Assembly: GCA_025363475.1 (NCBI GenBank)
Contig: JANYDS010000018.1
Coordinates: 62,001-126,000 of the forward strand
Direction: 5' to 3'
Origin: Terriglobia bacterium
Lineage (GTDB): Bacteria; Acidobacteriota; Terriglobia; Bryobacterales; Bryobacteraceae
DNA: 64,000 nt
The notes under the pieces are model-generated. The model did not search any database. It worked only from the letters and a program-made list of their open reading frames with translations, and was not told the origin of the DNA. The position numbers were made by a program, and so were the translations under genes. This document shows, piece after piece, positions 12,015-13,530 of this stretch (position 1 is the stretch's first letter; each line of letters starts with the position of its first letter).

Positions 12015-12137
12015 TTTTTGCGTTCGCTGACGTCCGGCGGTCACTCATATTGGCAAAAGTGTTTTTTTCCGAACACTATTTTCTTACAACTAACCGTTTC
12101 ATGGTATCGTCATGAATAGTGGCTATGGCCAACTTTA

Positions 12138-12158
12138 GACCGAAGTCTCATTTCGGTC
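12138..12158 (+). repeat. Small hairpin in the intergenic region
   Basis: GACCGAA (12138-12144) and TTCGGTC (12152-12158) form a 7-bp stem with a 7-nt loop. No T-run follows directly, so it is not a typical terminator. It may form the 5' part of a longer RNA or the 3' end of the upstream mRNA. Confidence 0.4.
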
Positions 12159-12195
12159 CGTAACTTTTCCTTTTTAAATTCGTCTGTAATTTTAA

Positions 12196-12224
12196 CGGGA
12201 TGCAGTTGATCCCGCAGATTTTTT
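12196..12224 (+). terminator. Probable intrinsic terminator after the argS operon
   Basis: CGGGAT (12196-12201) pairs with ATCCCG (12209-12214) around a 7-nt loop. After three bases comes ATTTTTT (12218-12224). The stem is short but the layout is that of a Rho-independent terminator, placed to end transcription from hemD-argS. Confidence 0.5.
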
Positions 12225-12280
12225 CACAACCGGTGTCGTCCCCCGTTACGATTAAACTCGTTTCCCGGGATGGCCCAGCT

Positions 12281-12362
12281 GACAGGTGCAATCCTCCGAG
12301 TGCCTGCCGGTTTTTCGTGAAGACGGCAGGTGCCCTCCTCCGAGCGCCTGCCGTATTTTTTT
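12281..12362 (+). ncRNA. Candidate small RNA: tandem hairpins with anti-SD loops
   Basis: Two similar hairpins stand in tandem. Hairpin 1 (12283-12307) has a 7-bp stem with two G-U pairs and loop AATCCTCCGA. Hairpin 2 (12323-12354) has an 11-bp stem with one G-U pair and loop CCTCCTCCGA, followed at once by ATTTTTTT, a strong intrinsic terminator. Both loops are complementary to Shine-Dalgarno sequences. The pattern recalls C-rich-loop regulatory RNAs such as RsaE in Firmicutes or the cuckoo RNAs of Alphaproteobacteria. I see no clear promoter; the 5' end may lie near 12225, after the preceding terminator. This is an inference from structure only. Confidence 0.5.
12323..12362 (+). terminator. 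Strong intrinsic terminator (hairpin 2)
   Basis: An 11-bp stem (12323-12333 with 12344-12354), a 10-nt loop and a seven-T run form a near-ideal Rho-independent terminator. It is too far (over 300 bases) from the end of the upstream gene to be its first terminator, which favours a separate transcript. Confidence 0.75.
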
Positions 12363-12393
12363 GTTCCAATACCGAACCTCTGGCGTTCTGCGG

Positions 12394-12412
12394 TTGTTTC
12401 AGACTGAAACAA
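12394..12412. repeat. Perfect 19-bp palindrome, candidate operator
   Basis: TTGTTTCAG, one central A, then CTGAAACAA: 9-bp arms with no mismatch. The length and one-base centre suit a dimeric repressor site better than an RNA hairpin. It lies 228 bp upstream of the dehydrogenase start at 12640. No regulator is encoded next to it. Confidence 0.45.
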
Positions 12413-12473
12413 TTGACTCTCCCGCCCTTACCCCGTCCCTTTACAAACAAGGGTTTCTGCTTTGGTTCATTGC

Positions 12474-12572
12474 GTGCTTGAGGAGAATGCGTGAAATACA
12501 GTCGCAGTGACTCAAGCCCGGTGAAGCCAATCCTCCCTGACTCCCTCCCCTTTTAGTTTTACCCTCAAGCAC
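12474..12572 (+). repeat. Long-range inverted repeat with alternative partner
   Basis: GTGCTTGAGG (12474-12483) is perfectly complementary to CCTCAAGCAC (12563-12572). The same left arm can instead pair over 7 bp with CTCAAGC at 12511-12517. The left arm contains AGGAG. The enclosed DNA is pyrimidine-rich with CCTCCC at 12532-12537 and CTCCCTCCCC at 12541-12550. Together these could form a switchable RNA structure. The rest of the intergenic region up to the dehydrogenase shows no gene I can support. Confidence 0.4.
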
Positions 12573-12626
12573 ACCTCAAATCCCTCCAAAATCCTCATTC
12601 ACCGGCTTGGGCCTCTTGCGGACAGG

Positions 12627-12632
12627 TACAAT
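12627..12632 (+). promoter_or_regulatory. Pribnow-like hexamer before dehydrogenase start
   Basis: TACAAT ends 7 nt before the ATG at 12640, with no Shine-Dalgarno between. It supports both the chosen start and a leaderless mRNA. Confidence 0.4.
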
Positions 12633-12639
12633 TCTGTTT

Positions 12640-13530
12640 ATGGCAAAACTTGGCTTTCTCGGTCTCGGCCTTATGGGCTATCCAATGGCGCGCAATCTGG
12701 CGAAAGCCGGTAACGACGTCGCAGTCTGGTCTCATACCGGCTCAAAAGCAACCAAACTGGCAGCCGAAGCCAGCGTAACCGTTTGCGAAACCCCCGCTCA
12801 GGTAGCAGCCCATGCCGAATGCACCTTCGTTTGCGTCGGCAATTCCAAAATGTCAGAGAAAGTGATTCTCGGGCCGGACGGCCTCAAAAGCGGGGCGGCC
12901 AAAGGCTCGGTCATCGTCGACGCCAGCACGGTCAGTCCGTCTTCGAGTCGCCGCATTCACGAAGAACTGGCAGCCGTGGGAATAGATTTCCTCGGCGCGC
13001 CCTGCACCGGCTCAACCCCTGGCGCAACCAATGCCACCCTTACCTTTATGATCGGCGGCGAGCAGAAAGTCTTCGAACGCGCCAGGCCCTGGTTCGAATT
13101 GATGGGGAAGAAACTCTATTACTGCGGCGGCCCGGGCATGGGACTCCACGCCAAACTCACCCAGAACCTGGTCCTGGCGAATATCCTGCAGGCTTTCAAC
13201 GAGGGGATAGTCCTCAGCACCAAGGCCGGTATGGATCCGGCCCTCATGCTCGATATCCTGGCCAACAGCGCCGCCAAGTCGGGCCTGATCGACTACAAAG
13301 CCCCCTTCATCTTCAAGCGCGACTTCACAACTAACTTCTCTGTAAAGTGGATGCACAAGGACATCGGCCTCATGCTGGAGTCCGCCGAAGAGCTGTCCGT
13401 ACCCCTTTTTCTGACTTCTGTCACCCGTCAGCTTTTTCAGGCAGCCATAGCCACCGGGCATGGTGAAGAAGATATCTGCTCTACAATCAAGGTGTTAGAG
13501 GCAATGACCGGAGTCGAAGTCAAAGGCTGA
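12640..13530 (+). CDS. NAD(P)-dependent beta-hydroxyacid dehydrogenase
   Basis: The 296-residue enzyme belongs to the 3-hydroxyisobutyrate/tartronate-semialdehyde/glyoxylate reductase family. The N-terminal Rossmann motif GFLGLGLMGYPMARNL is clear. A substrate-binding segment near GAPCTGSTPGATNATLTFMIGG corresponds to the family's DAPVSGG region, and the catalytic Lys lies in GLHAKLTQN. The usual KxxNN is here KLTQN. The substrate cannot be assigned. I chose ATG 12640 over a TTG 33 bases upstream because conserved sequence starts right after it and a TACAAT box sits 7 nt before it. The gene is flanked by two structured intergenic regions. Confidence 0.9.
   Translation: MAKLGFLGLGLMGYPMARNLAKAGNDVAVWSHTGSKATKLAAEASVTVCETPAQVAAHAECTFVCVGNSKMSEKVILGPDGLKSGAAKGSVIVDASTVSPSSSRRIHEELAAVGIDFLGAPCTGSTPGATNATLTFMIGGEQKVFERARPWFELMGKKLYYCGGPGMGLHAKLTQNLVLANILQAFNEGIVLSTKAGMDPALMLDILANSAAKSGLIDYKAPFIFKRDFTTNFSVKWMHKDIGLMLESAEELSVPLFLTSVTRQLFQAAIATGHGEEDICSTIKVLEAMTGVEVKG

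Follow-up and report, generated by a model that had tools for sequence, protein, structure and literature searches.

The window, by which we mean the whole stretch of 64,000 nucleotides that was analysed, from the genome of a Terriglobia bacterium, contains two successive hairpins whose loops are complementary to Shine-Dalgarno sites, the second of them running into a tract of seven thymines. The question that this locus raises is whether it encodes a small RNA acting in trans, as had been proposed in a sequence-only reading of the same DNA, and if so, how far that RNA extends, from which promoter it is made and how widely it is distributed. Small RNAs are almost unknown in Acidobacteriota: the table of a review lists four distinct annotated ones for the phylum (PMC9029176). 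A search of the literature, covering open-access papers, yielded no RNA of this kind in Acidobacteria, in line with what that reading had stated. The structured RNA gene is conserved and is preceded by promoter-like signatures, and there is in our view hardly any doubt that the element is a real RNA gene. What the initial proposal did not include are the promoter signatures, how far the RNA extends in the 5' direction and its distribution across the family. The features are listed in Table 1.

Table 1. Features of the RNA locus, in coordinates of the window.
Feature	Position	Strand	Basis or remark
Upstream gene, 233 aa	11313..12014	+	synteny marker outside the RNA; no Pfam match
Extended -10 TGGTATCGT	12102..12110	+	predicted start near 12117; no good -35 by eye
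Predicted small RNA, long form	12117..12362	+	start predicted from the extended -10; ~246 nt
ECF-sigma-type element: GTAAC (12160-12164), 16 nt, CGTC (12181-12184)	12160..12184	+	predicted start near 12191
Predicted small RNA, short form	12191..12362	+	start predicted from the ECF-type element; ~172 nt
5' hairpin CGGGAU...AUCCCG	12196..12214	+	fold of the short form
Long-range helix P0: UUCAC (12223-12227) with GUGAA (12317-12321)	12223..12321	+	RNAalifold, 12 genus sequences
Hairpin 1, anti-Shine-Dalgarno loop AAUCCUCCGA at 12290-12299	12277..12312	+	fold and genus covariation
Hairpin 2, loop CCUCCUCCGA at 12334-12343, T7 at 12356-12362	12323..12362	+	fold and covariation

Both hairpins, their loops and the seven-T end are as originally described, and the region folds better than its shuffled counterparts. 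More specifically, hairpin 1 consists of AGCTG-a-CAGGTGC, the loop AATCCTCCGA and GTGCCTG-c-CGGTT, whereas hairpin 2 consists of ACGGCAGGTGC, the loop CCTCCTCCGA and GCGCCTGCCGT (12323-12354), followed by an A and the T-tract; together with that tract, hairpin 2 would serve both as intrinsic terminator and as second anti-Shine-Dalgarno loop. The minimum free energy of the stretch 12240-12370 is -45.8 (z -3.2, with 1 of 200 dinucleotide shuffles equally good), and that of the two predicted forms is -68.5 (short form, 12191-12363) and -86.1 (long form, 12117-12363), each with a z of -4.7 and with none of 200 shuffles equally good. The element had been placed between 12281 and 12362, but it reaches further in the 5' direction. 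Consensus folding of longer sequences from the genus of the window has P0 enclosing an inner helix P1 (GG..C.GC with GCGG..CC) and hairpin 1. In counts over 11 sequences that were read off by hand and not blind, with bulges of 0-2 nt placed by eye, four of the five P0 pairs are kept in 11 of 11 and the end pair in 8 of 11 (L005, a poor fit, omitted), and all P1 pairs are kept in 11 of 11, with changes on both sides in 4 of 6 pairs (L002 omitted); the MAFFT alignment mis-registers L002 and L003 near P0. One P0 pair varies between C-G, U-G and U-A among 11 genus sequences. A helix of 3 bp that appeared in the covariance model of both hairpins (R1, columns 8-10 with 54-56) shows one-sided variation and competes with P1, and is probably wrong or an alternative. 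In some relatives (L004 and L005, by eye) a different hairpin is found near the position of the 5' hairpin.

Within the genus, the element was found in 15 of the 18 other genomes by the combined use of blastn and R1. When 61 genomes were searched by blastn with 12015-12640, 13 of them had matches; every one of these belongs to the genus (12 of the 18 others and the window's own), and the matches in the relatives all lie within 12220-12373. The R1 search added the genus genomes G004, G014 and G018. The match in G016 is cut by a contig end, such that hairpin 2 alone is readable. In an alignment of 12 genus sequences, selected by a pattern with UCCUCC twice, loop 1 (UCCUCCGAG) and loop 2 (UCCUCCG) are identical throughout. 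The stems of both hairpins show changes on both sides in 11 of 27 pairs (6.3 in shuffles), and 93.2% of the cells are paired (87.5 in shuffles, 26-44 in slid structures); for hairpin 1 the corresponding figures are 8 of 13 pairs and 86.5%. The loop is not absolute: hairpin 1 of L024 has ACCUCC and hairpin 2 of L029 has CUUCUCC. Selection on the stems had initially been argued from a comparison of the two hairpins with each other. These differ mainly by G-U versus G-C pairs and are therefore weak evidence of selection, but the covariation between genomes is strong. Indeed, the covariance search among relatives that had been suggested as a check found both conservation of the hairpins and covariation, and the proposal of a small RNA gene is supported to that extent; transcription and action in trans are predictions. 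In G010, the anti-Shine-Dalgarno terminator hairpin recurs some 200 nt downstream, along with an altered second copy of the RNA (L007 on contig C88 and L015 on C80), and two contigs of this genome end near the repeat.

The distribution extends well beyond the genus. At E<=0.1, R1 has matches in 106 of the 200 family genomes, and among 62 of its matches that were read, 3 of them from the genus, 58 have UCCUCC in a hairpin at the matched place, a count in which L077 was added by eye and for which R1 itself favours that loop; the exceptions are L029, L054, L084 and L085. The part that is constant across the family loci is the terminator hairpin with its UCCUCC-containing loop. The 5' part is variable and comprises two anti-Shine-Dalgarno hairpins in the genus, a GCCAGC hairpin preceding the terminator hairpin in what we call type B, or one anti-Shine-Dalgarno hairpin. 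For further counts we used a set of 71 loci, which are related and hence not independent, and for which the hairpin finder demanded UCCUCC; eight missed loci were added by hand, including L029 and L054, which are without UCCUCC. Left out were L077, which lacks a T-tract and a strict ECF motif, L084 and L085, which are without that loop, L013, L015 and L016 (at contig ends or copies of a repeat), as well as the duplicate retrievals L017-L023. An alignment of 56 terminal hairpins, made by omitting 15 of the 71 (nine near-duplicates, the shifted L025, L029, L054 and L055, and L032 and L082 with odd loops), has 96.6% of its cells paired and 112 cells changed on both sides as against 33.7 in shuffles, while the number of pairs with both-side changes (9 of 12) is little above that in shuffles (7.4).

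The covariance model built from these 56 hairpins (R2) matches 138 of the 200 family genomes, at least 82 of them outside the training set, and 55 of 76 genera at E<=1e-5; at that threshold the other 62 genomes gave no match. A single match is found in 134 of the 138. The window's genome has seven R2 matches, namely the two hairpins and five others, of which the three that were read have different loops. Outside the family, among 349 genomes of the class and 347 of the phylum, R2 gives weak matches in 48 genomes; UCCUCCGA is in none of the 22 such matches that were read, and the loop of L129 has CCCUCC. An exact pattern run against a named genome collection had 16 matches: nine are titled Bryobacterales, Bryobacteraceae, Ca. 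Solibacter or Ca. Sulfopaludibacter, and seven only Acidobacteria, Acidobacteriia or Terriglobia. The family that carries the RNA is thus probably Bryobacteraceae (order Bryobacterales). With respect to a mobile origin, the exact pattern had no matches in viral contigs. L077 (G126:C49) is a hairpin with the loop AGUCCUCCGG and no T-tract, located just behind a frame with a PEP-CTERM-like end, and a full copy is present elsewhere in G126.

The neighbouring genes differ in their association with the RNA. A homolog of the upstream gene is found upstream on the same strand in 19 of the 71 loci, the window's own included, a number that is a lower bound since 37 of the loci have only about 400 nt of flank. 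The loci with this homolog span the genus, type B and single-hairpin types. No counterpart of the dehydrogenase gene downstream in the window turned up elsewhere, whether in 33 further loci with flanks of up to 1.5 kb or in the 37 with about 400 nt, for which the test carries little weight. The sharing of the upstream but not the downstream gene favours homology among the types and a free-standing unit. The window also has a C-rich stretch on the plus strand (12528-12600), with repeated CCTCCC/CCCTCC, that separates the RNA from the following gene.

The RNA of the window has two promoter-like signatures upstream of it. Of these, the extended -10 element lies 58 nt upstream of the GTAAC of the other. 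Within 300 nt upstream of the terminal hairpin the pattern TGNTANNNT is present in 14 of the 15 genus loci, with two downstream and none in reverse complement, and over the 71 loci it is found upstream in 41 as compared with 5 downstream and 8 in reverse complement. In 10 of 13 type B loci an extended -10 occupies positions -37 to -40 relative to the GCCAGC hairpin, as compared with 3 of 225 control windows, a placement that had been noticed by eye before it was counted. The second signature has the layout of ECF-sigma-dependent genes, i.e. a -35 AAC and a -10 CGTC at a distance of 16-17 nt, and examples of Streptomyces sigma-E promoters are alike in layout (e.g. GCAACC...CGTCTT; PMC6767563). 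As NNAAC-N16/17-CGTC it is found in the 300 nt that precede the terminal hairpin in 46 of the 71 loci, while the controls gave 1 for the reverse complement, 3 for the downstream side and 2.2 for shuffles. Each of the 46 has a GNAAC site, with a spacer of 17 in 32 and of 16 in 14, and the element begins 73-191 nt upstream of the terminal hairpin. In held-out loci, an uneven sample that was drawn from the top R2 scorers and is dominated by three genera (g37, g54 and g5), it was present in 5 of 15, versus 0 and 1 in the controls and below the discovery rate; a looser pattern gave 9 of 15 upstream, 1 reverse and 4 downstream.

When 86 loci are taken together, 28 have the ECF-type element alone, 26 the extended -10 alone, 23 both and 9 neither, where for the ECF-bearing loci the extended -10 was sought only in the 110 nt before the ECF element and where overlap accounts for part of L041 and all of L057 among the 23. 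In the loci with both (22-23 of 86, including the window) the extended -10 comes first and is followed by the ECF-type element at a distance of 2-83 nt. Nine of the 15 genus loci have the ECF-type element, which by the controls is too many for chance. The element overlaps an inverted repeat with arms of 6-8 in L043, L044, L052, L078, L106, L120 and L122 (counted without a control); in L044, L106, L115, L120 and L122 the repeat over GNAAC...CGTC is perfect, with arms of 5-8, as if the element were also an RNA hairpin or an operator. Considering this overlap and its position downstream of the extended -10, the ECF-type element may be a piece of the RNA. For the window and its genus this leaves two readings, a second promoter in tandem or a conserved segment within the longer RNA. 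Our first reading, in which it was the promoter of the window RNA, was weakened by the result for the held-out loci and by the extended -10 upstream. As the window has both signatures, the RNA may start near 12117, near 12191, or at both. It is likely that the extended -10 is used in the genus, and ECF control in part of the family seems probable as well; that the window's own copy is under ECF control is a possibility towards which we are somewhat sceptical.

A genome-wide view of the ECF-type motif is in place here. The strict GTAAC/CGTCW pattern has 16 sites in the window's genome compared with 51 for a reversed control, and the site of the RNA has the top matrix score of the 16 (24.4, the next being 19.8) with a matrix that includes this very site. 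The second-best strict site (L203; G000:C58:45934-45959, minus strand) is situated just upstream of a gene for an ABC-transporter ATPase, possibly a co-regulated operon. Among 30 of the genome's 35 sigma genes that were examined there was no convincing candidate for an autoregulated ECF sigma gene: the loose motif 78 nt upstream of the sigma gene L178 has a 15-nt spacer, and in the ECF sigma gene L177 (G000:C28) a GAAAC-N17-CGTC lies over the first possible start codon. L177 is followed by frames that by eye resemble a zinc-finger anti-sigma factor and Spy/CpxP.

In the window no Rfam family reaches its threshold. The nearest family is ar14 (RF02344; NfeR1 of Sinorhizobium meliloti), to which the RNA itself, by its scores, does not belong: the best is 36.3 bits (L006), with 28.6 for the window locus and 31.3 for L033, against a gathering score of 58.8. 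In one search ar14 was the best sub-threshold match for 5 of 7 sources, in another for 1 of 20. Both RNAs have hairpins with variable stems and similar anti-Shine-Dalgarno loops, and the last hairpin is a terminator in the acidobacterial RNA, as it is in ar14. Nevertheless, ar14 has three hairpins, each with a CCUCCUCCC loop (PMC10746234), whereas the acidobacterial RNA has the loop NNUCCUCCGA on two hairpins in the genus and on one or two elsewhere among the family loci read. The promoter of NfeR1 is of the sigma70 type (CTTAGAC-N17-CTATAT), which the acidobacterial family may partly share in view of the extended -10 in 41 of the 71 loci. The ECF-type element of many acidobacterial loci is unlike ar14, and the host phylum is Acidobacteriota, while ar14 is alphaproteobacterial. 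The silencing of mRNAs by ar14 via its anti-Shine-Dalgarno loops has been confirmed genetically (PMC7143759), and NfeR1 has been described as Hfq-independent (PMC10746234).

If the ECF-type element is a promoter, the acidobacterial RNA would resemble MicA and RybB in being under ECF control, and repression with Hfq would be expected. MicA and RybB are envelope-stress small RNAs of enterobacteria that are controlled by sigma-E, an ECF factor, and that repress together with Hfq. They pair through a 5' seed, whereas the acidobacterial RNA presumably pairs through its loops, and we know of no sequence relation between them. RsaE/RoxS likewise has a C-rich single-stranded motif that is aimed at initiation regions, but the motif, the structure and the phylum are different, and no family of that type was among the Rfam matches, including those below threshold. 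C-rich loops are also found in the CcsR or cuckoo RNAs. In Rhodobacter sphaeroides CcsR1-4 are stress-sigma small RNAs with an RpoHI/RpoHII promoter and are cut by RNase E from a transcript that carries the protein gene ccaF1 (PMC10253847, PMC8307010). The gene upstream of the acidobacterial RNA is without a Pfam match and hence not a recognised DUF1127 protein.

Regarding targets, the pattern CTCGGAGGA-N4-10-ATG has 82 matches in the 19 genus genomes as compared with 31 for the reversed pattern; G018 alone contributes 17 of these 82, and at least 3 are due to the antisense strand of the RNA itself. Among the 27 that were read there was no recurring target. In a scan of the window and 400 kb of stretches of its genome (L242-L261), with rough start calls, GGAGG precedes 7 of 302 roughly called genes versus 6.0 in shuffles, and 1 of 162 surer calls, which suggests that this genome makes little use of canonical Shine-Dalgarno sites. 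No clear target class emerged among the 302 gene calls. A preference for exported or PEP-CTERM-like proteins, a lead taken from a few of the 27 matches, was dropped: GGAGG precedes 4 of 71 such genes and 3 of 231 others (p=0.055), and the duplex energies for exported proteins are not significantly different (p=0.37 and 0.13). Either few mRNAs may be targeted, or the pairing may extend beyond Shine-Dalgarno sites. The 17 sites of G018 (1-9 in the other genus genomes, 0-6 in controls) include three that are identical (CTCGGAGGAAGCCCTATG), and the one that was read precedes a 501-aa frame beginning with MPTERQLAANREN; these sites have the appearance of a repeated gene family whose ribosome-binding sites are strong.

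The observations allow for more than one explanation. The loops of a trans-acting regulator might pair with G-rich sites inside mRNAs or other RNAs, instead of with Shine-Dalgarno sites. The GGAGG count before gene starts, which is not enriched over shuffles, is in agreement with this, as is a conserved core (UCCUCCGAG) that is longer than an anti-Shine-Dalgarno sequence. However, the start calls behind that count are rough, the core is the 16S-type anti-Shine-Dalgarno sequence, CTCGGAGGA precedes ATG more often than its reversed pattern does, and the closest family known works at initiation regions (PMC7143759). On the whole we regard pairing at such other sites as unlikely. It is also conceivable that the hairpins bind a protein, for instance to titrate an RNA-binding regulator. 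Loops that hardly differ, carried by stems that vary, are seen in protein-sponge RNAs of the CsrB/RsmY type as well, and a recurring mRNA target is absent from the matches read. Yet the loops are devoid of the GGA core that is a feature of CsrA/RsmA sites, and their identity to an anti-Shine-Dalgarno sequence would have to be a coincidence, so that protein binding in place of base pairing appears decidedly unlikely.

Two further explanations tie the hairpins to an adjacent gene. The strong terminator at the end, together with the recurrence of the same upstream gene in 19 of the 71 loci, would suit a terminator or a 3'-UTR-derived stabiliser of that gene without a function in trans. We consider this improbable given that the other 52 loci, many with flanks of only about 400 nt, gave no match to the gene, that promoter signatures lie upstream of the hairpin, that the loop is conserved, which is not required for termination, and that the 22 terminators read outside the family have other loops. 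The same-strand gene that starts at 12646 in the window could point to a cis-acting leader or attenuator, but that gene was not detected at any other locus (33 with up to 1.5 kb of flank, and 37 short ones that weigh little), and the hairpin ends in a terminator with no antiterminator seen, which leaves such a role very improbable. Finally, the region might be a short protein-coding gene, either the plus-strand frame 12200-12481 or the minus-strand frame 12148-12450. In 10 of 12 genus loci some frame does stay open through both hairpins, and short pieces of the plus-strand frame are recovered by tblastn, the best outside the window with E=1e-6 (L007); these pieces, however, lie mainly in the hairpins with shifting frames, L009 and L014 are without an open frame and L012 has only a different one, and the changes in the stems are compensatory. 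A coding function is therefore hardly credible.

The best explanation, to which we assign a somewhat better than even chance, is that the locus forms a free-standing gene whose product, a small RNA of about 170-250 nt, acts in trans by masking initiation sites; anti-Shine-Dalgarno action in trans, taken by itself, we hold to be reasonably probable. In the genus of the window an extended -10 promoter of the sigma70 type would give rise to the long form, and the ECF-type element, some 50 nt further in, would add a stress-induced start or else be part of the RNA. About one third of the counted loci have the ECF-type element alone, and there it is probably the promoter. The exposed UCCUCCGA loops would pair with G-rich initiation sites (CGGAGGA-like) of chosen mRNAs and so block the binding of ribosomes, as in ar14/NfeR1, while P0 and the variable 5' part would help to expose the loops or contribute to specificity. 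All 19 genus genomes have Hfq and the RNA ends in seven Ts, so the RNA appears compatible with Hfq, which may bind the U-tail and would then be used by it.

A broader reading, which we put forward tentatively and judge rather unlikely to hold as a whole, starts from the apparent rarity of GGAGG ribosome-binding sites in the family: a dedicated anti-Shine-Dalgarno RNA would select the few mRNAs with a strong GGAGG, such that the canonical Shine-Dalgarno site becomes a regulatory address, and its input would have been rewired between housekeeping and ECF control, with both in tandem in the genus. In the same tentative reading the RNA, and often its genomic place, would have been kept while the promoters changed.

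The RNA is present in most of the examined genomes of a large family of soil bacteria, and it stays below every Rfam threshold in the window. The structural model and the promoter candidates make its regulation testable. If the proposed mode of action is true, it would constitute an anti-Shine-Dalgarno RNA outside the Proteobacteria, arisen by convergence or by deep descent.
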